Below are positions 5,099 to 25,163 of a stretch of 38,764 bases of DNA, in pieces (within the stretch, counting starts at the first letter, position 1; every line of letters starts with the position of its first letter). Position numbers and translations under genes: made by a program. The notes below the pieces were generated by a model. That model was not told the origin of the DNA, did no database searches, and was given only the letters and a program-made list of their open reading frames with translations. Source of the DNA: a candidate division Zixibacteria bacterium HGW-Zixibacteria-1 (GTDB lineage Bacteria > Zixibacteria > MSB-5A5 > GN15 > PGXB01); contig PGXB01000034.1 in the NCBI GenBank assembly GCA_002838945.1, positions 1 through 38,764 of the forward strand. The letters are read 5' to 3'.

Positions 5099-6484
5099 CT
5101 ATCGGTTAAAGCGGCCGATGAATTCCTCGACCTCGGGGATACCGCCCTGCATGATCAGGTAACCGTCGAATGGCTCGCGGGGAGTGATTTCGCCCGCGAT
5201 CGGGGTCAGCATCATTTTCCTGACCTCGGCCGGATCGGTCGTCTGCGCCAGCACCCAGCCCAGTTTGGTATAGGCCGCTTCGGGAAGCATGTTCTCACCG
5301 GGGATGACGCCCAGTTCCATCATGTCGCGCCCGGTGTCGTAAACGTACATCTGCACATAGCCCCAGAGTGTCTGCACCGTCATGTAAAGCGCGATACCTT
5401 TTTCATGGGCCTTTTTTAACGCCGGATAAAGCGGTTTATTGACATGCCCCAAACCGGTTCCGGCAATGACTATCCCCTTGTAGCCGTTGTCGATCAGCGC
5501 TTCGATGATATCGGGCTGCATGTTGGGGTAATAATAGACGATGGTCACTTTCTCTTCAAAAACCGCCTTGACATCGACATTGCGGTCGTCGCGACGGCGC
5601 TTGTAATCGGTTTTGATCGGCGTGAATTTCTCAGGCGTAACCGTGGCAATCGGAGTGTCGCCGACGGTGCGGAAAGTGGAGCGGTAGGACGAATGCATCT
5701 TGCGGACACGGGTCCCCCGGTGCAGCAGGTTGTACTCATCGGAGGTCGGCCCGAACATGCACACCATCACTTCGGCGATATCGGAATGTCCGGCGGTGAA
5801 AGCGGCACAGCGAAGATTGAAGGCGGCATCGGACGACGGCCGGTCGGAGGAACGCTGCGAACCGACCATGACGATCGGCACCGGGCTGTTCTGCACCATG
5901 TAGGACAGCACCGACGCGGTATGATGCATGGTGTCGGTTCCATGGCCGATGACGATACCATGGACGCCGTTGCGGATCTGCCGGCCGATTTCCTCGGCCA
6001 GGGCCTTCCATTGTTCCGGACCCATATTCTCGGAAAAGACGCCGAACAATTTCAGCGTTTCGAGATTGCAGATATCGGCCAGTTCCGGCACGGCGCCATA
6101 AAGTTCGCCCGGTGTGAAAGCCGGAATGACGGCGCCGGTGCGGTAATCGAGCCGCGAGGCGATGGTTCCGCCGGTTCCGAGAAGGGTCACGCTTGGTTTA
6201 TTATCCGAGAATGGAAAGGCTTTTTCGGGAATCTTGTAAATCGCTTCCTTGAAGCTGGTTTCCTTGATTTCGGTGATACGGTCGGCCCGGATACCGATAT
6301 TGTAGCCGGTTTTCAGTTTCAGGACAATATGGTCACCGTCGGCGGTTTCAGAGCGGGGCAAAATAACGCCCTCGAAATTGCCCTTGTCGGTTTTGAGGAC
6401 CACACTGGCCCAGACACGTCCCCCCAGCGACTGAAGAACCTCTTTGGCCCGGCCTTTATATCCCTTAAATGCAGCGTCATTCAT
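5099..6484 (-). CDS. gatD: Glutamyl-tRNA(Gln) amidotransferase subunit D-like asparaginase (GatD)
   Basis: GatD is the glutaminase subunit of the archaeal GatDE amidotransferase that converts Glu-tRNA(Gln) to Gln-tRNA(Gln). The 461-aa length fits the family. An N-terminal beta-barrel-like segment (about 1-85) precedes the L-asparaginase I-type domain. GTGGTIAS (103-110) carries the nucleophilic Thr, HGTDTM (181-186) the second Thr/Asp pair, and Lys-containing motifs follow. No gatE, gatA, gatB or gatC is in the window, so the partner is unknown; a stand-alone asparaginase role is possible. The gene is transcribed alone, divergent from the aldehyde dehydrogenase. An archaeal-type GatD in a bacterium suggests old transfer. 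The family call is firm, the physiological role less so. Confidence 0.85.
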   Translation of the reverse strand: MNDAAFKGYKGRAKEVLQSLGGRVWASVVLKTDKGNFEGVILPRSETADGDHIVLKLKTGYNIGIRADRITEIKETSFKEAIYKIPEKAFPFSDNKPSVTLLGTGGTIASRLDYRTGAVIPAFTPGELYGAVPELADICNLETLKLFGVFSENMGPEQWKALAEEIGRQIRNGVHGIVIGHGTDTMHHTASVLSYMVQNSPVPIVMVGSQRSSDRPSSDAAFNLRCAAFTAGHSDIAEVMVCMFGPTSDEYNLLHRGTRVRKMHSSYRSTFRTVGDTPIATVTPEKFTPIKTDYKRRRDDRNVDVKAVFEEKVTIVYYYPNMQPDIIEALIDNGYKGIVIAGTGLGHVNKPLYPALKKAHEKGIALYMTVQTLWGYVQMYVYDTGRDMMELGVIPGENMLPEAAYTKLGWVLAQTTDPAEVRKMMLTPIAGEITPREPFDGYLIMQGGIPEVEEFIGRFNR

Positions 6485-6746: not shown

Positions 6747-8204
6747 ATGACTGAAAAAATGCAGATCGGTCTGGATGTGGAATCCATCATGAAAAAGGCT
6801 GTTGAGGCAGCCGCTAAATTCAGACAATTCGATCAGGGGCAAACCGACAAGGTTGTCCGGGCGGTATATGAGGCCGGGTTCAACAATCGGGTTCATCTGG
6901 CCAAACTGGCCTGCAAGGAAACAAGACTGGGTGTCTGGCAGGACAAGGTCATTAAAAATGTCATTGCCACCCGTTTTGTATATGAAGACATCAAAAATTT
7001 GAAGACGGTCGGCGTCATATCGGAGAATAACGAAAACGGCATTATCGAAATCGCTCAGCCGATTGGGCCCATTTTTGCGGTGACGCCGGTGACCAACCCG
7101 ACCTCGACGGTTCTATTCAAGATCCTTATTTCCCTTAAATCAAGGAATCCCATTATCATCCGTCCCCACGGGGCGGCCCGGAAGTGCTCCATTGAAGCGG
7201 CCCGGATATGTTACGAAGCGGCCATCGAGGCGGGCGCCCCGGAACATTGTGTGCAGTGGATTAAAAGTTCCACCGAGGAAGAAACGCTGGCCCTGATGAG
7301 TCATAAGAAGACCGCCATGGTGCTGGCCACGGGCTCGATGGCCCTGGTCAGGGCGGCATATAGTTCGGGGAATCCGGCGATCGGAATCGGCCCGGGGAAT
7401 GTACCGGTATTTATCGGCAAGACGGCTGATGTTCCTTTCGCCGTGGAGCAGATCTTCAATTCCAAGACATTCGACAACGGAACAGTGTGCGCCAGCGAGC
7501 AGGCACTCGTGGTCAGAAAATGTCATGTCGAGGAGATGATTAAGGAGCTGAAAAAGCGGGGGGCGTATTTTCTTTCAAAAGAGGAAATTGCCAAGCTCGA
7601 ACCGGTTGCCTTCAACACAACCACCAGAACCATGCGGCCGGAAGTAATCGGCCAGCCGGCCACGGTTATCGCGAAGATGGCTGGAATCGATGCGCCTGAA
7701 GGGACCACGCTGTTAATTGCCATGCTCGAGGAAGTCGGTTTGCAGTCGCCGCTTTCGCTGGAAATACTGGCGCCGATATTGGCATTCTATGTGGCCGATG
7801 GTATCGATCAGGCAATTGATTTATGCCGGAAGATCAATCATAACGGCGGGCTGGGGCATACTATCAGCATCTTTTCCAACAATGAAGAAAGAATTTTATA
7901 TTTTGCCACGGTCATGAATGCCGGAAGAATACTGGTCAATACGCCGGCCTCACAGGGAGCCCTGGGCGGTTCGTATAATGCCCTGCAGCCGTCGATGACC
8001 CTCGGCTGCGGGACCGGAGGCAAGAATATTACGACCGATAATATCTCGGCAAAACACCTGCTCAATATTCAGCGCATCGCCAAACGGCAGGTGAGCGAAT
8101 GTATCAAAACGGAAAACATGAGTCTTTATTTCGATGAGTCGATCAGCGCATCGAAATTCGAAGAAAGATGCCTTGAAAATAATATAAAAAAGGCGACATC
8201 CTGA
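6747..8204 (+). CDS. CoA-acylating aldehyde dehydrogenase
   Basis: This 485-aa member of the AdhE N-terminal / EutE type interconverts acyl-CoA (often acetyl-CoA) and aldehyde with NAD(H). Visible marks are the cofactor-binding stretch QPIGPIFAVTPVTNPTST (about 104-121), IGIGPGNVP (212-220) and the nucleophile region FDNGTVCASEQ with Cys248. The late LGHTISIFS and GGSYNALQPSMTLGCG blocks are typical of the acylating branch. It lacks the Fe-alcohol dehydrogenase half found in full AdhE. An AGAGAGG site precedes ATG 6747. The gene is convergent with the acetate transporter, suggesting two-carbon metabolism. No microcompartment shell genes are near and the N-terminus shows no clear encapsulation peptide. 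Confidence 0.88.
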   Translation: MTEKMQIGLDVESIMKKAVEAAAKFRQFDQGQTDKVVRAVYEAGFNNRVHLAKLACKETRLGVWQDKVIKNVIATRFVYEDIKNLKTVGVISENNENGIIEIAQPIGPIFAVTPVTNPTSTVLFKILISLKSRNPIIIRPHGAARKCSIEAARICYEAAIEAGAPEHCVQWIKSSTEEETLALMSHKKTAMVLATGSMALVRAAYSSGNPAIGIGPGNVPVFIGKTADVPFAVEQIFNSKTFDNGTVCASEQALVVRKCHVEEMIKELKKRGAYFLSKEEIAKLEPVAFNTTTRTMRPEVIGQPATVIAKMAGIDAPEGTTLLIAMLEEVGLQSPLSLEILAPILAFYVADGIDQAIDLCRKINHNGGLGHTISIFSNNEERILYFATVMNAGRILVNTPASQGALGGSYNALQPSMTLGCGTGGKNITTDNISAKHLLNIQRIAKRQVSECIKTENMSLYFDESISASKFEERCLENNIKKATS

Positions 8205-10253: not shown

Positions 10254-10383
10254 TTTTAGGCAGGTGGTCGATTATGCGGTGGATGGCCGGAACTCAAATT
10301 GACATTTCCAGGTCCAGAGCTTGAAATTAAGTCCTTGATTTGACGTTAAGGCATTAATCTGCAATAAGTTTGCATGGGAAGTG

Positions 10384-10412
10384 AGAATATTATTTTCAAT
10401 TGCTTGACAAAG
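10384..10412 (+). repeat. 29-bp promoter repeat, copy 1
   Basis: This is identical over 29 bp to 10790-10818 and contains TTGACA. It shows that the region upstream of the tRNA was duplicated together with tRNA sequence. Confidence 0.85.
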
Positions 10413-10433
10413 GCGATAAGTTATATTTATAAG
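10404..10433 (+). promoter_or_regulatory. Promoter ahead of tRNA-like copy 0 and the GIY-YIG gene
   Basis: TTGACA (10404-10409) is followed after 17-18 nt by TTATAA/TATAAG. The predicted start is at about 10440, exactly where the tRNA-like sequence begins, as expected of a tRNA promoter copy. Confidence 0.6.
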
Positions 10434-10443
10434 GGTTTTTGAT

Positions 10444-10481
10444 CGCGGGGTGGAGTCCGCCGCGGCGGAGTAACTCGTCGG
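10444..10481 (+). repeat. Degenerate tRNA-fMet 5' fragment, copy 0
   Basis: This begins CGCGGGGTGGAG like the intact tRNA at 11072. In place of the D-loop it has a CCGCCGCGGCGG palindrome, then AGTAACTCGTCGG. Similarity ends before the anticodon. It lies 38 bp upstream of the GIY-YIG start codon. Confidence 0.8.
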
Positions 10482-10519
10482 CATTTCAATCACAGCAGGT
10501 TCAGTGGGATCCCAGAGTA

Positions 10520-10783
10520 ATGTATATTGTTTATGTTATCAAATCGGCGTCAGGCCGCAGATATACGGGACACACGAGCGATCTTGAAAGGCGCCTGATT
10601 GAACATAATAGCGGCATGTGCAGGACGACCAAGGGCGAATCGACCTGGAAGGTTGCCTATACCGAGGAATATGCGACGCGCTCGGATGCGATGAAACGCG
10701 AAAAGTGGCTCAAAAGCGGCCGAGGGCGTGATTTTCTGGAATCGATTTTGGATAAGACTATTTCCCGCAATAATTTTACTTGA
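10520..10783 (+). CDS. Small GIY-YIG nuclease domain protein
   Basis: An 87-aa single-domain GIY-YIG protein of the UvrC-N/YhbQ-like kind. YIVYVIKS carries the GIY-type strand, YTGHT the YIG-type strand, and DLERRLIEHN the catalytic Arg helix. The tail KREKWLKSGRGRDFL is the usual C-terminal signature. ATG 10520 is chosen because the domain starts there; the open frame upstream merely reads through the tRNA-like copy. Such singletons often sit just 3' of tRNA genes in other genomes. Here the gene is sandwiched between two copies of the tRNA-fMet promoter/5' region, with the second promoter copy starting 7 bp after its stop. It could be the enzyme of a tRNA-targeting mobile unit, but that role is inferred. 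Confidence 0.8.
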   Translation: MYIVYVIKSASGRRYTGHTSDLERRLIEHNSGMCRTTKGESTWKVAYTEEYATRSDAMKREKWLKSGRGRDFLESILDKTISRNNFT

Positions 10784-10789
10784 GGCTTA

Positions 10790-10818
10790 AGAATATTATT
10801 TTCAATTGCTTGACAAAG
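10790..10818 (+). repeat. 29-bp promoter repeat, copy 2
   Basis: Exact duplicate of 10384-10412. It begins 7 bp after the GIY-YIG stop codon and restores a promoter ahead of the tRNA-like array and the intact tRNA. Confidence 0.85.
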
Positions 10819-10837
10819 CCATTAAAATTTATATATT
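10810..10837 (+). promoter_or_regulatory. Promoter of the tRNA-like array and tRNA-fMet
   Basis: TTGACA (10810-10815) is separated by 16 nt from TATATT (10832-10837). Transcription would start near 10845 and run through three tRNA-like units into the real tRNA. Confidence 0.65.
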
Positions 10838-10849
10838 GGGACTCTTGAT

Positions 10850-11071
10850 CGCGGGGTGGAGTCCGCCGTGGCGGAGTAGATCGTCGGACACATCTTCGGG
10901 ATCACCAAAAAATTTATTTTGATCGCGGGGTGGAGTCCGCCGTGGCGGAGTAGATCGTCGGGCACATCTTCGGGATCACCAAAAAATTTATTTTGATCGC
11001 GGGGTGGAGCCCGCCGTGGCGGAGTAGCTCGTCGGGCTCATCTTCGGGATCACCAAAAATTTAATTTTGAT
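10850..11071 (+). repeat. Array of three 74-bp tRNA-fMet-like units
   Basis: The units start at 10850, 10924 and 10998, exactly 74 bp apart, and the intact tRNA follows at the same period (11072). Each has the acceptor 5' strand and CGCGGGGTGGAG, a TCCGCCGTGGCGGA-type palindrome replacing the D-loop (CCCGCC... in unit 3), AGTAG(A/C)TCGTCGG, CTTCGGG(A)TCACCA and an A/T linker. The T-arm and 3' acceptor strand are absent, so they cannot fold as tRNAs. The unit nearest the intact gene is most like it, and units further upstream have diverged more. Confidence 0.85.
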
Positions 11072-11149
<78 letters not shown>

Positions 11150-11297: not shown

Positions 11298-12329
11298 CTA
11301 GAATCCAAAGGCGACTTGAAATATAGCAGCATCTTCTGCCTCTTTATTGGCTTGGTATTCAAGTCTTAGTTCAATTATATCATTAATATTATGACCAAGT
11401 CCGGTGCTAGTCCGGGCAATATCAGCGCTTTTTTGATCCGGACGGAATTCATCATATCGTCCGATTAAGTACCAACTTCCGATACCATAGAAACCCTGTA
11501 GGTAGAAGCCATCATTGGTGAAATTTGAATTATCGTCCGACTCAAACCGATGAGCAATATACTCTCCTTTGAATTTGAAGTTTTCAATCGAAACCTGAAT
11601 ATCTACCCCGGCAAGAAGCATATCATGGGTCTGGTCCAAACCGTAAATCCTTGCTAAGGAACCACCCAGTTCAAACGATCCATTCAGAATAAGACCAAGA
11701 CGTCCTCCAATAGCAAGATCGTTATGAGTTTCCAATTCCTCGCCAGAAGGATCAGTACCTTCATAGCTAAAGCCATTTGCAACAAAAACTGTGACGTTAC
11801 CCCAGGTCGCTTCGGTTGAAGCATATCCACCAATGTCATTCCACGAGTCGTGTGTATTCTCTATCACCAGTGGCGAGGAGATAAGCTTGCGGTCGATGGA
11901 GGGATATACATGCCAGTCTATTCCGAACGGCACATCATGCTGGCCTCCGCCAATCGTAAAATTGTTGATTCCCAGAAACGAGGGTCTGGATTCACTGACC
12001 GACCACGCGTTGTAGTCTGCGGTGAAGGCGCCGATGGTGAAGCTACCTTCATCGTATGCTATAGCCAAAGCGATCGCAAAGCGATCGGTCAACTCAGACT
12101 CAAGGTCAACCTCGGCCTGGCCAATATCGAAGGTGCTACCATCGTTATTGTCCTGAAAGGTGGTCAGCAGGTCACCGAAACCCATGATCTGTAGAGTCGT
12201 TGACTCATTGATGGCAATTTCAGTAGGCCGTGGCCCCGCAGGAACGGTAGGGGTCGTATCCTGGGCGTTGGCAAGTGTTGCCAGTGCCAGAACCAGAATG
12301 AGACCTGTTATTAGCATTCTCATGAACAT
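11298..12329 (-). CDS. Outer-membrane porin-like beta-barrel, last gene of the feo operon
   Basis: 343 aa with a signal peptide (cut after about 22, ANA-QD). Alternating amphipathic strands throughout and a terminal phenylalanine (FQVAFGF) are typical of BamA-inserted barrels; the overall style is that of phosphate-selective porin O/P-like proteins. An AAAGGA site precedes the ATG, 12 nt after the stop of the small Cys-rich gene, so it is probably co-transcribed with feoAB. This suggests an outer-membrane path for ferrous iron or another small solute. No TonB box or plug domain is visible, so it is not a siderophore receptor. The barrel call is solid; the substrate is inferred from context. 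Confidence 0.7.
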   Translation of the reverse strand: MFMRMLITGLILVLALATLANAQDTTPTVPAGPRPTEIAINESTTLQIMGFGDLLTTFQDNNDGSTFDIGQAEVDLESELTDRFAIALAIAYDEGSFTIGAFTADYNAWSVSESRPSFLGINNFTIGGGQHDVPFGIDWHVYPSIDRKLISSPLVIENTHDSWNDIGGYASTEATWGNVTVFVANGFSYEGTDPSGEELETHNDLAIGGRLGLILNGSFELGGSLARIYGLDQTHDMLLAGVDIQVSIENFKFKGEYIAHRFESDDNSNFTNDGFYLQGFYGIGSWYLIGRYDEFRPDQKSADIARTSTGLGHNINDIIELRLEYQANKEAEDAAIFQVAFGF

Positions 12330-12341
12330 ATCGTTATCCTT

Positions 12342-12515
12342 TCATCTATCATTTATCTTCAAAAGAGTAGTTTTGTTTTCACATTTATCTAATATGGGAC
12401 AGGGGCCGCTACAGGTGCAACCACTCTTCTTACCGGATGTAGTCAGGTAGATCGATCTGGCTATTAACGCTATGGCGGAGCCTACGATTCCAATGACAAT
12501 GACTATTTCCATCAT
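12342..12515 (-). CDS. FeoB-associated Cys-rich membrane peptide
   Basis: A 57-aa open frame starting MMEIVIVIGIVGSAIALIA has one N-terminal membrane helix followed by a short cytoplasmic tail with CTCSGPCPILDKC. This matches the FeoB-associated Cys-rich family, in which CxCxxxCP...C is typical. A strong AAGGAGG lies just upstream, 9 nt after the feoB stop, so it belongs to the operon. The likely role is to help FeoB, perhaps in iron binding or assembly. The identification rests on motif and position and is strong for such a short gene. Confidence 0.85.
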   Translation of the reverse strand: MMEIVIVIGIVGSAIALIARSIYLTTSGKKSGCTCSGPCPILDKCENKTTLLKINDR

Positions 12516-12524
12516 AACACCTCC

Positions 12525-14717
12525 TTAAATCCCAATTCCAAAGAGTGAACCGAGCTGGAAGGTGGCTACAGTCACAACCCAAGCCAAAGCGGTCAATCCG
12601 CCGAGTTGGAACAGAGCCCACTTCCATGAGTTACTTTCCCTTTTGGTTATCGCGATTGTCGCCATGCAAGGAGCGCTAATAAGCGTGAAGAGCATAATGC
12701 AGAACGCCACCAGAGGACTGTAATTGGCGGCTAATTTCCCGCGTAGAGCGTCTGATTCCTCATCAGCCTCACCAACCGCGTACACAATACCCATCTGCGC
12801 AACAAACACTTCTTTTGCTGCGAAGGAGCCGATCAGGGCAGTACCAATTCTCCAGTCGAACCCCATGGGGCTGATGATTGGCTCCAGCCAATGCCCAATT
12901 CTACCGGCGACCGTATAAGCCATCTCTTCTGCCTGCTGTACTTGAGCAAGAGACTCCAACTTCTCATCGAGAATAGCCTGGGCTATTTCCGGTTCCGCAT
13001 TAGGCATTTGTACTGCAACCTCATATTCGGTTGTTGCTTGTGTGGAGGCGGCCTCATAATCCTGATCGAAGACCACTTTCTGGGGATAGGATGTCAGAGC
13101 CCAGAGTACGATTGACACGCCGAGAATGATAGTACCAGCTTTTTTAAGATAGAGCCAGCCTCGCCCCCACATGTGAATTAAGACTCCCTTGAGTGTAGGC
13201 ATTCGATACGGCGGCAACTCCATCACAAAGGGTGTCGATTTGCCCTTAAATACAGTTGATCGGAGAAGCTTGGCCGATACGATAGCCAGGAGAATACCGA
13301 TGACGTAAATAGTCCACAACATGGCTCCATGCCACATCTGTGGGAAGAAGGCGGGAATTATCAGGGCGTAAATCGGCAGACGTGCACCACAACTCATTAA
13401 AGGAGCCACCATCATAGTTGTGAGTCGATCTCGTCGGTTCTCCAGAGTCCGAGTGGCCATGATCGCCGGAATAGTGCAACCAAAACCAATGAGCATTGGA
13501 ATGAAGCTCTTGCCGTGAAGACCAATCTTGTGCATGAGCCGATCCATGATAAAGGCGGTTCGTGCCATGTAACCTGAATCCTCGAGAATAGCGATAGCCA
13601 GGAAAAGCAGGAGAATATTCGGAAGGAAAACTACCACACCGCCTACACCGCAAATGATGCCATCCAGCAGGAGCGACCTAAGAGCACTGTCGGAACCGAC
13701 CGGCCACCAGGATTCAACCGTTCCGCCAAGCCAACCGAACAACTCTTCGATCCACCCCATCATCGGATCGCCCACAGTAAAAGTCAGGTGGAAGACTGCA
13801 TACATCAACCCCAGAAAGAGTGGCAACCCCAGAACACGATTGGTTACTACGCTGTCAATTTTATCTGAAGTTGTCTTTCTCTGCTCGATGGTCGAAGAGA
13901 CAGTTTCTTTGAGTACTCCTGAAATATAGCCGTACCGTTGATCGGCAATCAGTATCTCTGGGTGATCACCCATGATGCTTTCGAGACGGTTCTTACTCTG
14001 CTCAACCTCTTTGTGGAGACCGGCGGCATTACGCAGATTCTGGTTACCGGCAAGGTTCAGAACCTCGCTATCGCCCTCAAGGAGTTTGATTGCCAGCCAC
14101 CTTCGATGGTGACCTGAAAAAGTTCCGTTCTCGCTTACTACGATCTCCTGCAGCTTCTGGAGTTCTCGATCGATTTCTTTCCCGTAGCTGATTGATGTAG
14201 TGCGGTTGCCATTAGATTCCAAAGCCGTCTTAACGGATGTACTTAGAAGTTCTTCTATGCCCTTATTACGATGGCCAACGGTGGATACTATCGGTACGCC
14301 AAACAACTGGGAGATTTGGTCAAGGTCGAACCGAACCCCTCTGGACGCAGATACATCGCTCATGTTGAAGGCAAGTACCAATGGAACGCCCATTTCCATG
14401 AGCTGTACAGCCAGATACAGATTTCTCTCAAGATTCGAAGAGTCAATGATATCAATTACAACATCAGGTTTTTCTTCAACGAGGAAATTACGAGCCACTT
14501 CCTCTTCAAGCGAGTGCGGCGTGAGGCTATAAACGCCAGGCAGGTCGACAACTTCAAGTTCGTGATTCTGGAATCGTCGCGTTCCTGATTTCTTCTCCAC
14601 TGTCACACCGGGATAATTCCCCACGTGCTGATGCGCACCGGTAATGGCATTAAACACCGTTGTCTTACCGGAATTTGGATTGCCGGATAAAGCCACTTTG
14701 ATCTTCTTGCGTGTCAT
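12525..14717 (-). CDS. feoB: Ferrous iron transport protein B (FeoB)
   Basis: 730-aa inner-membrane Fe(II) transporter. The N-terminal G-protein domain has G1 GNPNSGKT (about 12-19), DLPG (G3) and NMSD (G4). A helical spacer follows, then a membrane part with two Gate/NFeoB-C type repeats (GCTIPAIMATRTLENRRDR region; SCGARLPIYALI; late SPMGFDWRIGTALIGSFAAKEVFV). Length and motif order are normal. AGGAAG lies before ATG 14717. It sits after feoA with an 81-bp gap holding a 28-bp palindrome, so it may have its own iron-regulated promoter as well as read-through. Base use is more AT-rich than the flanking core genes, fitting an acquired island. Confidence 0.97.
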   Translation of the reverse strand: MTRKKIKVALSGNPNSGKTTVFNAITGAHQHVGNYPGVTVEKKSGTRRFQNHELEVVDLPGVYSLTPHSLEEEVARNFLVEEKPDVVIDIIDSSNLERNLYLAVQLMEMGVPLVLAFNMSDVSASRGVRFDLDQISQLFGVPIVSTVGHRNKGIEELLSTSVKTALESNGNRTTSISYGKEIDRELQKLQEIVVSENGTFSGHHRRWLAIKLLEGDSEVLNLAGNQNLRNAAGLHKEVEQSKNRLESIMGDHPEILIADQRYGYISGVLKETVSSTIEQRKTTSDKIDSVVTNRVLGLPLFLGLMYAVFHLTFTVGDPMMGWIEELFGWLGGTVESWWPVGSDSALRSLLLDGIICGVGGVVVFLPNILLLFLAIAILEDSGYMARTAFIMDRLMHKIGLHGKSFIPMLIGFGCTIPAIMATRTLENRRDRLTTMMVAPLMSCGARLPIYALIIPAFFPQMWHGAMLWTIYVIGILLAIVSAKLLRSTVFKGKSTPFVMELPPYRMPTLKGVLIHMWGRGWLYLKKAGTIILGVSIVLWALTSYPQKVVFDQDYEAASTQATTEYEVAVQMPNAEPEIAQAILDEKLESLAQVQQAEEMAYTVAGRIGHWLEPIISPMGFDWRIGTALIGSFAAKEVFVAQMGIVYAVGEADEESDALRGKLAANYSPLVAFCIMLFTLISAPCMATIAITKRESNSWKWALFQLGGLTALAWVVTVATFQLGSLFGIGI

Positions 14718-14759
14718 AACTTGAGCTTCCTATTTATACAAACTTATTTTCGTATTCAT

Positions 14760-14787
14760 ATAATTGTTTGGCAAGCCAAACAATTAT
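14760..14787 (-). promoter_or_regulatory. Palindromic operator upstream of feoB
   Basis: 13-bp perfect arms (ATAATTGTTTGGC / GCCAAACAATTAT) are separated by AA. The core TTTGGC-AA-GCCAAA matches the core of the palindrome in the dtxR promoter (15875-15890). It is best explained as the binding site of the operon's DtxR-type regulator. A TTGTTT / TATGAA pair with 17-nt spacing overlaps it on the minus strand. Confidence 0.75.
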
Positions 14788-14798
14788 GTCAAAAAAAA

Positions 14799-15077
14799 CT
14801 ACTCCACCAAAACTTTCAGAGCCATACCTCGACCAAGCACCAAACGGCTCCCTTTGACAGCAACGACCATGGGGCCTCTGCGGCCATTGCTGATCACCTC
14901 AAGTATGACGCCGGGAACCAGTCCCATTGAGGATAATCTTTCGCACAGACCGTTTCCGGCATTGATCTTCACGACTCGAAATTGATGTCCCATAATTGCC
15001 ATAGCCAGTGGAACGGTTACTTTTGCGTGTTGTTCAGTGGACATGTATGACTTGTACCTTGCTGTTAATTCGCTCAT
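14799..15077 (-). CDS. feoA: FeoA-domain protein
   Basis: 92 aa with one SH3-like FeoA domain. Visible family marks are LCERLSSMGLVPGVILEVI (about 44-62) and the closing GSRLVLGRGMALKVLVE. FeoA is a small cytoplasmic partner needed for FeoB function. Its ATG overlaps the stop of the upstream regulator by ATGA, so translation is coupled. An internal ATG (residue 12) could be an alternative start because the first 25 residues are an extension. This is the second FeoA domain in the operon; the other is fused to the regulator. Confidence 0.92.
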   Translation of the reverse strand: MSELTARYKSYMSTEQHAKVTVPLAMAIMGHQFRVVKINAGNGLCERLSSMGLVPGVILEVISNGRRGPMVVAVKGSRLVLGRGMALKVLVE

Positions 15078-15829
15078 AGTTTTTCAACCGTTATCTTTTT
15101 GGCTTCATCTTTGCGCAGGGAAAGATGATATCCCTTTACTTTTACTTCAATAGGGTCGCCAAGAGGCGCTACTCGTTCAACCTCTATAAGTGATCCCGGA
15201 GTAACTCCCATTTCAGCGATACGTCGACGGGCATCACCTTGACTATCAATCTTCACAATTCGACCTTTTAGGCCGGGTTCCAGTTCATTCAACTGTATAG
15301 TCATACGCTGTTTTCCTTCACAATCTTTTTTTTTGTCTTTAATATTATCCAAAATTCCTATAACGCATTTCTCACAGCTTTCCATAGTGTCGTCGTGATC
15401 GCAATGATACCCAAACCCTTTTATCCATTTGCTCCCTCCACGCGGACAAGTCTCAACAAACTCAACGAATTCAACGAACCGCTCCAGGATTTTGGGCGAA
15501 ACAGCGTGTTCCATCTTACAAGCCGCTTCATCAGCGTGCTTTTCTTCAACGGCAAGAACCTTGGTGAAAAAGTCGCGAAGTACTTCGTGGCGTCGAATAA
15601 CATCCTTCCCCAGAACTTCACCTTTCCGAGTCAAAGTCACTAGTTCATAAGGTGCGTAATGGACCAATTTCCGTTCGGAAAGAGCTTTTAGCGCGCCAGT
15701 CACAGAAGAATAGTTGACCTTCAGTCGCTTCGAAATGTCTTTTACGCGGGCCGCCTGCTTCTCAGCAATCAGATTGTAAATGGCTTCAAGGTAATCCTCG
15801 AGGCTGGCGCTTAAAATCTCAACAGACAT
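15074..15829 (-). CDS. DtxR-family metal repressor fused to FeoA domain
   Basis: 251 aa. A winged helix (about 1-75, VKDISKRLKVNYSSVTGALKAL) is followed by the DtxR metal/dimer domain (HEVLRDFF, then CKMEH at 104-108, with ligands of the DtxR/MntR pattern). A linker with five Cys (128, 143, 152, 155, 170) comes next, then a C-terminal FeoA/SH3-like domain from about 176. It heads the operon and its promoter contains a palindrome that recurs before feoB, implying autoregulation and control of iron uptake. The Cys cluster (H-CDHDD-CEKC) resembles the segment seen in Fe-sensing DtxR-FeoA proteins and might bind metal. Fe versus Mn specificity cannot be read. Confidence 0.88.
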   Translation of the reverse strand: MSVEILSASLEDYLEAIYNLIAEKQAARVKDISKRLKVNYSSVTGALKALSERKLVHYAPYELVTLTRKGEVLGKDVIRRHEVLRDFFTKVLAVEEKHADEAACKMEHAVSPKILERFVEFVEFVETCPRGGSKWIKGFGYHCDHDDTMESCEKCVIGILDNIKDKKKDCEGKQRMTIQLNELEPGLKGRIVKIDSQGDARRRIAEMGVTPGSLIEVERVAPLGDPIEVKVKGYHLSLRKDEAKKITVEKL

Positions 15830-15871
15830 TTAATAATCTATCCTCTTCAAGTATTGTTTTGCCTTACGAAG

Positions 15872-15900
15872 ATAGTATGGCATGCCAAACATATTGTCAA
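15872..15900 (-). promoter_or_regulatory. Operon promoter with embedded DtxR-type operator
   Basis: TTGACA (15900-15895), 17-nt spacer, TACTAT (15877-15872). The palindrome GTTTGGCATGCCATAC (15890-15875) fills the spacer and the start of the -10 box, so a bound repressor would block polymerase. The core matches the feoB operator. Confidence 0.75.
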
Positions 15901-16104: not shown

Positions 16105-16152
16105 GGCTCATAACCCGAAGGTCAGGGGTTCAAATCCCCTCCCCGCTACCAA
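16105..16152 (+). repeat. attR-like tRNA-fMet 3' fragment
   Basis: A 48-bp perfect copy of 11102-11149 without any 5' tRNA half, followed within 6 bp by a strong terminator. It marks the far end of an element integrated at the tRNA gene. It is not a functional tRNA. Confidence 0.85.
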
Positions 16153-16387: not shown

Positions 16388-17320
16388 ATGAATATCTGTA
16401 ACAATATTCTGCAGGCTATTGGGAATACTTCGATGGTGCAGCTTCGCAAGGTTGTGCCACCCGGCTGCGGGAAAATATTCGTGAAACTCGAATGGGAAAA
16501 TCCAACCGGTTCGATGAAAGACCGCACGGCACAGGCCATGATTTCGCGGGCCGAAGAAGACGGCCGGTTGAATCCGGGGGATACGATCGTCGAATACACC
16601 GGCGGCAGCACCGGTATATCGCTTGCATTGGTCTGTGTTGCCAAGGGGTACCATCTTCATATCGTGACATCCAATGCCTTCAGTCAGGAAAAGCTGAAAC
16701 ATATGTCCGCTCTCGGCGCGGAGCTGACACTGGTGCCGAGTGAAGGAGGGTTGACCACCAAAAAACTGATTCTGGATATGATCGAGGCCGCCCGGGAAAT
16801 CAGCAAAAAACCGCATACTTTCTGGAGCGATCAGCTCAATAATCATGACAGCATTGCCGGGTACTATCCCCTGGGTGAGGAAATCTGGAACCAGACAGGT
16901 GGAAAACTTGATGCCTTCGTTCAATGTGTCGGCACGGCGGCTTCGGCGCGAGGTGTGGCCAGTGTGCTGAAGCGCCACAATCCGAAGATTAAAATAATAA
17001 TTGTCGAGCCGGCGGAATCAGCGGTGTTGTCGGGCGGCCAGGCGGGACCACACAAAATCGAAGGAGTCGGGATCGGTTATACTCCGCCATTGTGGGAACC
17101 GGATCTGGCGGATGAAATTATTCCGGTCGGTACCGATGACGCCAAGGCCATGGCCCGGCGCCTTGCCTGTGAGGAGGGCCTGTTTGCGGGGACATCTTCG
17201 GGAGCCAATGTAATCGCGGCCATACGAGTGGCGGAGCAACTAGGTCCGGAGGCGCGCATAGCCACTTTGATGGTGGATTCCGGTTTGAAGTACCTTAGCA
17301 CGGATGTTTTCAGAAAATAG
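16388..17320 (+). CDS. Cysteine synthase family PLP enzyme
   Basis: 310 aa, fold type II PLP beta-synthase. IGNTSMVQLR (11-20) opens the domain, NPTGSMKDR holds the Schiff-base Lys44, TGGSTG (71-76) takes the place of the usual TSGNTG substrate loop, and GTSSGAN (about 277-283) binds phosphate near the end. It would make cysteine from O-acetylserine (or a phospho-variant) and sulfide, or act in transsulfuration. The missing Asn in the substrate loop and the lack of a cysE neighbour leave the substrate open. A GTAAGGGAA site lies before ATG 16388. It is the first gene after the tRNA terminator. Confidence 0.85.
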   Translation: MNICNNILQAIGNTSMVQLRKVVPPGCGKIFVKLEWENPTGSMKDRTAQAMISRAEEDGRLNPGDTIVEYTGGSTGISLALVCVAKGYHLHIVTSNAFSQEKLKHMSALGAELTLVPSEGGLTTKKLILDMIEAAREISKKPHTFWSDQLNNHDSIAGYYPLGEEIWNQTGGKLDAFVQCVGTAASARGVASVLKRHNPKIKIIIVEPAESAVLSGGQAGPHKIEGVGIGYTPPLWEPDLADEIIPVGTDDAKAMARRLACEEGLFAGTSSGANVIAAIRVAEQLGPEARIATLMVDSGLKYLSTDVFRK

Positions 17321-22296: not shown

Positions 22297-23109
22297 TTAA
22301 TTTAAACGAATAAACTTCCGCATTATGGCTATAAGCAACAGTAGAATTCCAAAAGCGCACACAATGGTTGCTCCGGTTGGTGTATCGAGCCAAAAAGACA
22401 AAACCAGGCCAATTGCAGACCCGATAAACCCAAAAATCCAACCATACATAAGACGCAATCCGATTCGCTTTGTCATTAAAGCTGCAAATACTGATGGTAC
22501 AACCAGGAAAATAAAAACCAGCAGTACTCCGCAAATTTTGACCGAAGACGTCACCACCACGGCAAAGGAGGCATAAAAAAGAAAATCCCAAAATCTGGAA
22601 GAGGACAGGGTTTTTCCATTATTGAAAGTCAGAGCTATAAATTTGCTTCTGGCAAACCAATGAAAAGCGCCCACAATCGTATATGCAAGCAGGGTTTTTA
22701 GGACAGCACTCGGCGAAACGGTCAATAAACTTCCTACCAGAAGGTATCGAATATGCTCTGCCCCTTCAGGAGAATGGCTTACCGCCAAAATGGCGGCTGC
22801 CGAACTGACAGCATAGACTATACCAATGATTGCCTCTTGGGGGATAATGCCTTCTATACTCCTGGTGAAAGTAAAGATGCCTCCCCCCGTGAGTGCAAAC
22901 AGTAATGCAAAAAAGTACGAGATCATTCCGTCGGCAGGATAACCTAACAGAATAGCCATTGTAATTCCAAAAGCCGCGACTTGCGCCAGGGAGAGGTCGA
23001 TGAAAATGATCCCTCTTTTAATGACATGAAGTCCGAAATAGGTATGTATGCCCACCAATATCAGACTGGCTAAAAAGGGCCATATGAGAAACGGCAAGTA
23101 TTCGATCAC
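22297..23109 (-). CDS. Metal ABC transporter permease (ZnuB/TroC family)
   Basis: 270 aa with about eight membrane helices. Family marks are GIHTYFGLHVIKRGIIFIDLSLAQVAAFG at the start, the conserved EAIIGIVYAVSSAAAIL stretch and VVTSSVKICGVLLVFIFLVVPS. It forms the channel for zinc or manganese. Its start overlaps the binding-protein stop by 4 nt, so the two are translationally coupled. No ATPase follows; the operon ends here, facing the lipoprotein terminator. Confidence 0.9.
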   Translation of the reverse strand: MIEYLPFLIWPFLASLILVGIHTYFGLHVIKRGIIFIDLSLAQVAAFGITMAILLGYPADGMISYFFALLFALTGGGIFTFTRSIEGIIPQEAIIGIVYAVSSAAAILAVSHSPEGAEHIRYLLVGSLLTVSPSAVLKTLLAYTIVGAFHWFARSKFIALTFNNGKTLSSSRFWDFLFYASFAVVVTSSVKICGVLLVFIFLVVPSVFAALMTKRIGLRLMYGWIFGFIGSAIGLVLSFWLDTPTGATIVCAFGILLLLIAIMRKFIRLN

Positions 23110-23993
23110 TTCAGCCCCCCCAGCAAGACATTTACATTCCCCTCCAACCAGTCAATGTAAGATTCATTCTTGTCCTTTCCACCAATTGATGGATATAATG
23201 TTACGACTTTGGCCCCGGTGTCCTCAGCTATTTTTTGAGGTATCCGCTTATCGAAATATGGTTCCATTGCAATAACTTTGATTCCCCGCTTTTTTATCAT
23301 TTCAGTCAATTCTTTGACGTGTGAAGGTGATGGAGGGATGCCCGGGTATGGCTCTATAAAACCGGCCGCAATTAAACCAGTATATTCATTGAAATAAGGC
23401 CAGGAATCATGATAATAGACTATTTCCATGCCCTTCAGAAATTGGATTTTGGGGCGTATATTTTCGAGGTCTATCGAAATATGGGAAATAAGACTATCCA
23501 TTCTGGAGCGATAAAAAACTGCATTTTCGGCATCGACATATTTTAAACCTTCCAAAATTGATTTCAATATTGGTTCGACATTCTGGGGACCAATCCAATA
23601 ATGCGGATTTCCTCTTGGATGAATATCGCCGTATCTGGCATCAGCCTTAAATGTAGGAACTTCAAGCGGCTTGATATACTTGGAACAATCAATAATCGTC
23701 AGTTTGTCATTTCGCGAGCCGTCAATAAGTTGATCCATCCATTTATCAAGCTCCAGCCCGACTTTGAAAACAATATTAGCTTTGGCGATTTTCGCCATAT
23801 AGCTTGGCCTGACTTCGACAAAATGAATATCGGCATTGGGGGAGGCAATGGAGTTAACTTTTACCAGATCGCCGCCCATAGCATTGACCCAATAGGCCAG
23901 GTCGGAAGTCGATGTAACTACATTTATTTCCCCGAAAACTGGCCCGGAAAGGGTCAATAAAACAATAATTGACAACAATATTTTTTTCATCAT
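23106..23993 (-). CDS. Metal-binding periplasmic protein (ZnuA/TroA family)
   Basis: 295 aa with a signal peptide (cut after about 21). Metal ligands of the family are visible as IHFVE (first His), NPHYW (second His), YYHDSW (third His) and the late acidic MEPYFD stretch. There is no His-rich loop between the first ligands, which is more like TroA or low-His zinc proteins. It captures Zn(II) or Mn(II) for the adjoining permease. It starts 9 nt after the outer-membrane gene stop. Zinc is favoured by context but not proven. Confidence 0.9.
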   Translation of the reverse strand: MMKKILLSIIVLLTLSGPVFGEINVVTSTSDLAYWVNAMGGDLVKVNSIASPNADIHFVEVRPSYMAKIAKANIVFKVGLELDKWMDQLIDGSRNDKLTIIDCSKYIKPLEVPTFKADARYGDIHPRGNPHYWIGPQNVEPILKSILEGLKYVDAENAVFYRSRMDSLISHISIDLENIRPKIQFLKGMEIVYYHDSWPYFNEYTGLIAAGFIEPYPGIPPSPSHVKELTEMIKKRGIKVIAMEPYFDKRIPQKIAEDTGAKVVTLYPSIGGKDKNESYIDWLEGNVNVLLGGLK

Positions 23994-24002
23994 TACACCT
24001 TA

Positions 24003-25163
24003 TTAAAAATTATGTGGTCTATGAGGGCCAAGGCTTATCACCAGTTGCATTTTCGCTTCCCAATAGCCATCGCTCTCATTCGTATCGATCCAGTGCCCTG
24101 CAATTCTTATCAGGCTGGTTTCTTCTATTGGCGCAAAGCCGACAAAAAGACCGGCCCGGCATGTATTATTCCGATGCGCTATTGGCTCTTGCTGATCTTC
24201 AAGGTTTTGGATTTCATCAAGCCTTACCCATTCAAGAATACCGCCTATATTGTATTTCTGCCGGAAACGGTAGTCGATATATCCATACGAACCATATGAA
24301 TATAAATCGTCTTCATTGGCCCCGGATTGGCTGATACGCATTATGCCTTCCGCTTCGACCTGGAGGGATCTGTACCTGGACGGCTTGCTTTTATATTTAA
24401 TATCTCCTCCAATAATCCAGCTTCGGAGTTGCTCAGGATCTCCGATCTCATCCACATCATGCTCGTCGTTTCCAGCAAAGCCAGATACTGCATTCAGGAC
24501 AGATCCGCCGATCGCAAGTTCAGCGGATTCCGATAAAGAAAGCGATGTTGTCAATCTGCCAAAAAAGCCAAGATCTCGCTTATCTTCCGAATCCTGTTCA
24601 ACCGCTGCGGTGCTATCATCTTCCATATGCTCATGCTCACGGGGAGTCAAGGCATCGCCCTTAAGAAGCCCGCACATCAATTCAGTAAAAGCTCCTCCGG
24701 TGGGAAGCGCTATCGAAGCCCGGATTGTCATATCCGACAAACCTTCTTCGCCAAAGAAATATTCATGAGGCAAGGGGCGATCAATAAATGAATAAGCATG
24801 GGGATGAATGGGATTGAGCCGGCCAAATTCAAGCAAGTATTTGCCGACTCTTAAATTGGTCCTGAAAGGCAAGCCTCTTAAGAAAGTCGCATAAGCTTCC
24901 TCTATTTCGGCGTTATGGTCGCCATGCCAGCCCATTACAATATCAGCCCTGACATAAGGATTTAAATAGCCATTTATATTCAACTCCACTTCTGGATCTG
25001 CTAAATTCAATTTTTCTTTTTCATTGCTTCGAGCAGCATCGCCGTGACTGAATATCCGGAAATCTCCAATAGCCGAAATATCCGGATTTAAAGTCGTCTG
25101 TGAGTAAATGTCCTGGTGGACAAATAACAAAGCAAGACCTAAACATATTATTCCAATCCGCAT
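24003..25163 (-). CDS. Outer-membrane beta-barrel of the metal-uptake operon
   Basis: 386 aa with a signal peptide (cut near IYSQ). Barrel-like strands run throughout, with RVGKYLLEFGRLNPIHPHAYSFIDRPLPHEYFFGEEGLSDMG-type porin wording, ending in ...PHRPHNF with the terminal Phe. Surface stretches rich in His/Asp/Glu (HGDHNAE, REHEHMEDD, NDEHDVDE) could collect metal. No TonB box or plug is seen. It is immediately upstream of the metal-binding protein, so it is the likely outer-membrane entry for zinc. This His-loop arrangement is an inference from sequence and position. Confidence 0.75.
   Translation of the reverse strand: MRIGIICLGLALLFVHQDIYSQTTLNPDISAIGDFRIFSHGDAARSNEKEKLNLADPEVELNINGYLNPYVRADIVMGWHGDHNAEIEEAYATFLRGLPFRTNLRVGKYLLEFGRLNPIHPHAYSFIDRPLPHEYFFGEEGLSDMTIRASIALPTGGAFTELMCGLLKGDALTPREHEHMEDDSTAAVEQDSEDKRDLGFFGRLTTSLSLSESAELAIGGSVLNAVSGFAGNDEHDVDEIGDPEQLRSWIIGGDIKYKSKPSRYRSLQVEAEGIMRISQSGANEDDLYSYGSYGYIDYRFRQKYNIGGILEWVRLDEIQNLEDQQEPIAHRNNTCRAGLFVGFAPIEETSLIRIAGHWIDTNESDGYWEAKMQLVISLGPHRPHNF

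Follow-up and report, generated by a model that had tools for sequence, protein, structure and literature searches.

A 5-kb, self-regulated Fe(II)-type metal-uptake operon was probably inserted whole, as a cassette, at the 3' end of a tRNA-Met gene in the candidate division Zixibacteria bacterium HGW-Zixibacteria-1. The operon was found in contig PGXB01000034.1 (GenBank assembly GCA_002838945.1, positions 1 to 38,764 of the forward strand). This whole stretch of 38,764 nucleotides is called the window, and unlabelled coordinates refer to it; G and L numbers are working labels for genomes and loci, and G000 is the host genome. The operon lies between two identical copies of the tRNA-Met 3' end, and a related genome has the same site empty. 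It contains five genes and a stretch of conserved Cys residues in its regulator, all on the minus strand.

15074..15829, minus strand: dtxR, DtxR-family regulator, 251 aa, with helix-turn-helix (HTH) domain, metal-binding/dimerisation domain, Cys linker and FeoA/SH3-like domain
15320..15448, minus strand: Cys linker of the regulator (Cys 128, 143, 152, 155 and 170; the first four conserved among relatives, from their alignment)
14799..15077, minus strand: feoA, 92 aa (PF04023)
12525..14717, minus strand: feoB, 730 aa (TIGR00437, over the cut-off)
12342..12515, minus strand: Cys-rich membrane peptide, 57 aa, FeoB_associated-like (PF12669, under the cut-off)
11298..12329, minus strand: porin-like outer-membrane protein, 343 aa, with a signal-like N-terminus and a C-terminal Phe

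Read from 15829 to 11298, the genes dtxR, feoA, feoB, Cys-rich peptide and porin form a tight operon. The dtxR and feoA genes overlap by 4 bp, and the gaps after feoB and after the peptide gene are 9 and 12 bp. The sole sizeable gap, of 81 bp between feoA and feoB, contains a palindrome that is the second predicted operator. FeoB scored 624 bits with TIGR00437 (cut-off 315.65) and contains PF02421 (G domain), PF17910 (cytosolic helical), PF07670 in two stretches (Gate) and PF07664 (C-terminal); with its FeoA partner present, it was assigned to a FeoAB transporter. The 57-aa peptide scored 22.4 bits with PF12669 (cut-off 27). It resembles this family and directly follows feoB, and it was not counted as a member. 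The initial annotation had described a self-contained iron operon with two matching operators; gene content, spacing and operator positions support this description, and all five genes are present in the order given there.

The borders of the proposed insert and its right flank are as follows.

11072..11148, plus strand: tRNA-Met (anticodon CAT), intact, left border (ARAGORN)
11102..11149, plus strand: copy 1 of a 48-bp direct repeat, from tRNA position 31 to one base past CCA (repeat search)
16105..16152, plus strand: copy 2 of the repeat, 100% identical, a duplicate tRNA-Met 3' end with no tRNA gene, right border
16388..17320, plus strand: gene for a PALP (pyridoxal-phosphate) enzyme, part of the chromosome to the right of the insert, adjacent to tRNA-Met in G008

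The two repeat copies are 5,003 bp apart, and all five genes and both operators lie between them. Among 15 relatives searched, PALP orthologues with 81-89% identity were found in five (G009, G008, G017, G001 and G006), and a partial one with 75% identity in G020. In G008, 166 bp separate the tRNA-Met from the PALP orthologue that follows it (86% identity), and a homologue of window 5099-6484 lies a few kb off on the other side, as in the window. This arrangement represents the empty site. The locus thus shows the two marks of an island at a tRNA site, namely a second copy of the tRNA 3' end on its far side and a relative in which the site is empty. The initial annotation had not noted these borders. 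The same locus is occupied differently in other relatives. In G009, tRNA-Met and PALP are about 10 kb apart, and a Fur-family and a peroxidase-family gene are surrounded there by degenerate copies of the tRNA end; G006 has four tRNA-end pieces before PALP. For G017, the 18 kb read contained no tRNA, and the G001 contig ends too soon. Related operons at 55 loci (51 of the 80 relatives' loci, plus L138 and L140-L142) were scanned for tRNA genes; tRNAs occurred only in L042, L043, L065 and L141, and none of the operons is bounded by tRNA ends like that of the window. The tRNA border therefore belongs to this locus and not to the operon family.

The closest relatives of FeoB and DtxR were found in metagenome-assembled genomes of other phyla, labelled Planctomycetota, Phycisphaerae, Cloacimonadota and Deltaproteobacteria, with best identities of 66.9% (FeoB) and 63.3% (DtxR). 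The FeoB proteins of the tested relatives in the order share 39-51% identity, except that of G045 (64%). These relationships fit with an acquisition from outside the lineage. Base composition is little different (46.3% vs. 48.5% GC).

The tRNA repeat might instead be what remains of a larger, decayed integrative element, from which the operon survived without having moved by itself. This history is a reasonable possibility, though somewhat less likely than not. In G041 and G035, the same tRNA-Met and a 3'-end piece enclose elements of about 26.7 kb. Their repeat likewise begins at position 31-32, and each encodes a tyrosine integrase (PF00589) whose gene runs into the tRNA end. This integrase, whole or shortened, stands beside tRNA-Met in nine genomes (G034, G035, G041, G006, G022, G054, G032, G012 and G040), and it is shortened in the last two of these and in G054 and G032. 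On the other hand, tblastn detected no integrase trace after the tRNA of the window, and the operon with its promoters fills nearly the entire interval. A search for tRNA-Met in 60 genomes returned 49 partial matches (counted by eye), of which 23, in 16 genomes, start at tRNA position 31-33. An integrase remnant after every tRNA copy was also considered. It was rejected except in G032 and G045, where the match extends further. The integrase gene overlaps the tRNA 3' end and its terminator, and most of the short tblastn matches correspond to the antisense strand of this overlap.

Other copies of the tRNA end were observed. Duplicated tRNA-Met 3' ends occur across the order, often several in a row downstream of tRNA-Met (L227, L231, L235-L252); most begin at tRNA position 31-33, and their cargo includes a restriction-modification methylase, an AcrB-type pump and a Fur-family gene with a peroxidase. 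The host genome contains two more copies (G000:C1:200965-201011 and G000:C65:255-301), and no tRNA gene was seen beside the first. At 10361-11083 of the window, a small GIY-YIG nuclease gene (10439-10783) lies between two 121-nt direct repeats that are 81% alike, followed by three 74-nt tandem repeats resembling degenerate tRNA-Met. Frames similar to this gene are also located between tRNA ends in G006 (L231 3684-4305).

The last gene of the operon was described in the initial annotation as a porin that suggests a dedicated outer-membrane route for Fe(II). The data support a recurrent outer-membrane partner of such units, and the dedicated role in Fe(II) entry stays a prediction. In other phyla, the next gene was barrel-like in 7/38 regulator or feo loci with a co-directional next gene, whereas among control genes of these loci the count was 6/555 (Fisher p=3e-6; 5/36 and p=2e-4 with near-duplicates removed). 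The survey covered 68 loci with enough sequence, leaving out 12 of the 80 with less than 1.2 kb downstream, and the home-made heuristic used as classifier misses some barrels (L015 and L052 were not counted). Pfam assigned such barrels to OprB (L036, L043 and L052) and weakly to Porin_O_P (L032); three of the ten proteins sent to Pfam gave no match or no barrel-type match. In G021, a porin relative with 41% identity directly follows a Cys-motif DtxR gene with the same operator and without feoB, and the feo genes of this genome form a separate fur-feoA-feoB-peptide operon. The G021 relative scored 22.3 with PF13609, below the cut-off.

The closest porin relative (59-61% identity), in G018, matched other barrel families only. 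Its promoter (TTGACA-16-TATAAT) is followed by a Fur-box-like site, ATGATAATGAATTTCAA, which agrees at 15/17 positions (two mismatches) with the delta-proteobacterial Fur box given in the excerpt of Rodionov et al. (PMC545781; here and below, papers with a PMC number are represented by excerpts). G018 holds 29 Fur-box-like places, compared with 4 in the reversed control, and has a perfect Fur box before its fur-feoA-feoB operon. No Fur box within 2 mismatches was found at the other porin loci scanned. An inverted repeat, ACACA...TGTGT, was also seen in the spacer of the G018 porin promoter, beside the Fur-box-like site (L139 about 7690-7760, G018:C93), and another regulator may act there.

The porin could also be a mere bystander; it would then be a general diffusion porin, located after feo by coincidence and without a special part in metal entry. 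This is somewhat unlikely. The protein is weakly similar to Porin_4, and 15/16 of the other porin matches in the order do not stand beside feo or DtxR within the 2-4 kb read around each. Against a bystander stand the enrichment of barrel-like genes after these units, the unrelated Pfam families to which these barrels belong (OprB, weak Porin_O_P and Porin_4) and the retention of regulator and porin without feoB in G021. In E. coli, moreover, the uptake of Fe(II) depends in part on porins (PMC7315122, excerpt). Candidate Fe(II) routes through feo-linked porins were proposed in 2004 (Rodionov et al., PMC545781, excerpt).

The regulator matched MntR, IdeR and DtxR in both sequence and structure searches, and the structure search lists DtxR and FeoA folds. 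PF01325 (HTH, 56 bits) and PF02742 (metal/dimerisation, 77.9 bits) were both over the cut-off. The third domain matched PF04023 (FeoA, SH3-like) with 83.7 bits; residues 174/178-251 superimpose on FeoA structures with Z 13.5-14.9 and rmsd 0.8-1.8 over 74-78 aligned residues. An SH3-like third domain is a known feature of DtxR/IdeR proteins (PMC7762939, excerpt). By domain content, the regulator is an ordinary three-domain DtxR protein whose FeoA-like part is the standard third domain. The FeoA domain that the initial annotation had noticed is therefore present, although it is not a special fusion; nothing was found in favour of the further idea that it senses the state of transport.

The primary metal site of the regulator consists of D12, E15, H81, C104, E107 and H108, which are predicted to be the ligands by alignment to MntR and DtxR. 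In an alignment of the window's frame with 78 of the 80 extracted related frames, each of the six residues is present in 78 or 79 of the 79 sequences. The site is mixed, since its Asp is found in MntR and its Cys in DtxR. The operon might thus be a manganese or mixed Mn/Fe system, in which an MntR-like regulator acts and FeoB carries Mn(II), as proposed for Porphyromonas gingivalis FeoB2. PgMntR has the same mixed Asp-Cys-Glu-His set, responds to Mn and binds DNA better with it (PMC4805248, excerpt), and the top PDB and NCBIfam matches of the N-terminal part of our regulator are MntR proteins. Iron can be called only the likely metal, because PgMntR with this set responds to Mn. We nevertheless consider manganese unlikely. 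A FeoB lies within 5 kb of 48/80 related regulators, and Fe(II) is usually imported by feo; the closest porin relative has a Fur-box-like site, and the feo operon of its genome, G018, also has a Fur box. In addition, the third domain is absent from the family members reported in the excerpt of PMC7762939 as not responding to Fe.

The five-Cys linker between domains 2 and 3, also claimed in the initial annotation, was seen at Cys 128, 143, 152, 155 and 170. Among the relatives (n=79), Cys is present at position 128 in 75, at 143 in 55, at 152 in 74 and at 155 in 61. All four occur together in 42/79, and at least 4 Cys anywhere in the linker stretch in 69/79. The commonest spacing is C-x14-C-x8-C-x2-C. 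Cys170 is not conserved (3/81). The native regulators of the order have at most one or two Cys in this stretch. A length below 220 aa was found for 28 of the 80 related frames (part of them split or cut at contig ends); many of these retain the Cys motif, which is also kept in some short relatives without a FeoA domain. The linker has a pLDDT of 65-84 by blocks in the AlphaFold model, and it is possible that it holds a structural Zn site or an Fe-S cluster. No description of a conserved Cys linker was found in the literature covered on DtxR-family regulators, mostly papers available without subscription. The linker marks a widespread DtxR group, many members of which, judging from record titles, come from usually anaerobic lineages.

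Two palindromes, one in the operon promoter and one in the feoA-feoB gap, had been noted in the initial annotation, and both were found at the coordinates it gave. Each sits in the spacer of a TTGACA promoter, between -35 and -10.

15876..15889: operator 1, TATGGCATGCCAAA, in the dtxR promoter (one mismatch to the symmetric form)
14767..14780: operator 2, TTTGGCAAGCCAAA, in the feoA-feoB gap (perfect palindrome)
15872..15900, minus strand: promoter P1, TTGACA-17-TACTAT, around operator 1 (promoter scan)
14763..14792, minus strand: promoter-like P2, TTGACA-18-AACAAT, around operator 2 (promoter scan)

The two operators are alike over 20 nt (85%). Within the window, when up to 2 mismatches are allowed, the 14-bp pattern is no rarer than chance would predict (4 found, 2.65 expected), and with up to 1 mismatch it occurs at 12 places in the host genome, compared with 44 for the reversed control. 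The credibility of the operators therefore rests on their position and conservation. Upstream regions of the best DtxR-like frame were compared in 98 loci (the window, relatives and own-order loci); 12 of the 110 loci, without a match to the anchor motif, and two duplicates were left out. The box TTWGGCNNGCCWAA with up to 2 mismatches was present in 42/98 loci (dinucleotide shuffles: mean 2.9, max 7). Among the 79 loci, window included, whose regulator scored at least 150 bits against that of the window, it was present in 40 (shuffles: mean 2.8, max 8), and in 21 with up to 1 mismatch (shuffle mean 0.27); because the consensus was sharpened after the data had been seen, these counts are somewhat favourable. 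TTGAC[AG] occurs within 13 nt before the box in 13 of the 42 boxed regions, with a background of 2.8% of such windows. In the order itself, TTGACA-N5-TTTGGCNTGCCATA is common to the window, G009 and G021, and in G045, the fourth genome with such a regulator, the box is TTAGTCGCGACTAA. One Cys-motif DtxR gene of G009 with a TTTGGCTTGCCATA box (L140 6070-9527, G009:C16) was observed to be followed by a TonB-dependent receptor and not by feo or a porin.

These data suggest that the palindromes are DtxR operators, at which we infer repression of the operon. That they are terminators or sites of another regulator is highly improbable: they could form hairpins and DtxR binding to them is predicted, but the scan found no terminator there, and they lie between -35 and -10 and are conserved upstream of DtxR genes of this kind.

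No further exact operator site was found in the host genome. Of the ten other one-mismatch places, six were read, and five of these lie inside reading frames. A global regulon was rejected, because no credible further target appeared among the places read and the sites are fewer than in the reversed control. The box TTTGGCNTGCCAWA was also searched in G000, G009, G021, G045 and G018, and six places outside DtxR genes were read; L202 and L204 lie inside reading frames, and L201, L203 and L205 lie between genes without evident metal link. The sixth, a one-mismatch box, TTTGGCTTCCCAAA, stands in the promoter of fur-feoA-feoB, beside the perfect Fur box (L198 4583-4596, G018:C134:60082-60095). Nothing was concluded from it, since no DtxR of the cassette's kind was matched in G018.

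The host genome has a second dtxR-feoA-feoB operon (G000:C39, L154 1293-4264), whose regulator, a frame of 158 aa, lacks the FeoA domain. This resident operon has a perfect operator, TTAGAGTATTCTAA, inside its TTGACA promoter. The perfect pattern TTAGANNNNTCTAA is found at the same place in 10/11 of the family's loci examined, the sole miss being L105 of the same-genus genome G001. The predicted operator of the cassette is unlike that of the resident operon; because the operators differ, the cassette would be regulated separately from the host's own feo genes.

The following mechanism is proposed. When iron, most likely as Fe(II), is sufficient, a metal-loaded DtxR dimer would bind both operators and shut P1 (dtxR-feoA onward) and P2 (feoB, Cys-rich peptide and porin). 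When iron is short, DtxR would release the operators. The porin might then admit the metal across the outer membrane, and FeoB would bring it across the inner membrane. The cassette may have entered by site-specific recombination, with an integrase that was supplied from elsewhere or later lost. Several findings weigh against this reading. The gene list has no recombinase between the repeats, and the host genome has no tRNA-Met-kind integrase at E<=1e-30. The -10 of P2 (AACAAT) is weak, the box consensus was refined on the data themselves, and PgMntR, whose metal site is similarly mixed, responds to manganese. The porin (PF13609) passes the Pfam cut-off of 27 barely, as a Gram-negative porin with 27.6 bits, and 15/16 of the other porin matches in the order show neither feo nor DtxR in the short stretches read around them.

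Window 22297-25163 encodes a 386-aa protein without Pfam match, whose N-terminus is signal-like, and after it a ZnuA-type binding protein and an ABC-3 permease; an adjacent ATPase gene was not noticed. The three genes may form a further metal importer that brings an outer-membrane protein of its own.

Tycheposons of Prochlorococcus are tRNA-bounded islands with nutrient cargo. A tyrosine recombinase inside, as in a tycheposon or an autonomous integrative element, was not found in the cassette, which also differs from tRNA-bounded islands in its size (5.0 kb) and its single operon. tRNA-Met(CAT) is a known island site, and nutrient-type cargo likewise lies between the tRNA gene and 3'-end copies in the tRNA-Met and tRNA-Lys islands of Methylophilaceae (PMC10872708, excerpt). 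The regulator resembles C. diphtheriae DtxR, M. tuberculosis IdeR, B. subtilis MntR and PgMntR in its winged helix, metal/dimerisation domain and FeoA/SH3-like third domain, in the palindromic box over its promoter and, for PgMntR, in the Asp-Cys-Glu-His site. It differs from them in the conserved four-Cys linker and in the box TTTGGCNNGCCAAA, which replaces the TTAGG-type of most relatives. As in other feoAB operons with a FeoB-associated peptide, feoA, feoB and a small Cys-rich membrane peptide are in tight order; unlike in the usual ones, an own DtxR comes first, a second operator precedes feoB and a porin comes last. Porins beside or co-regulated with feoAB were proposed as an Fe(II) route in Geobacter and Desulfuromonas, where they are psp near PF07396 and OprB-type PF04966 under Fur control (Rodionov et al. 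2004, PMC545781, excerpt); here the porin is of another family and the regulator is DtxR.

Known in kind are therefore the regulator family, feoAB, the feo-porin linkage and tRNA-bounded nutrient islands. New is their combination: a single integrase-less, self-regulated feo-porin operon of 5 kb makes up the entire insert, and its operator differs from the resident one. The DtxR proteins with a Cys linker, a widespread group, are also new. As speculation, and improbable as it stands, the tRNA-Met locus of this order might be a docking port for small, recombinase-less and self-regulated stress and nutrient cassettes (here feo-porin; in G009 a Fur-family and a peroxidase-family gene between tRNA-like repeats). 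Their movement would depend on the tRNA-Met tyrosine integrase that larger elements supply in trans, and the regulator might be a two-input sensor, with a second metal or an iron-sulfur cluster in its conserved four-Cys linker in addition to the classical metal site. The cassette would place a whole metal-uptake pathway, from the outer-membrane pore to the inner-membrane pump, in one regulated unit. It may thus offer a direct route to asking whether feo operons have dedicated outer-membrane channels.

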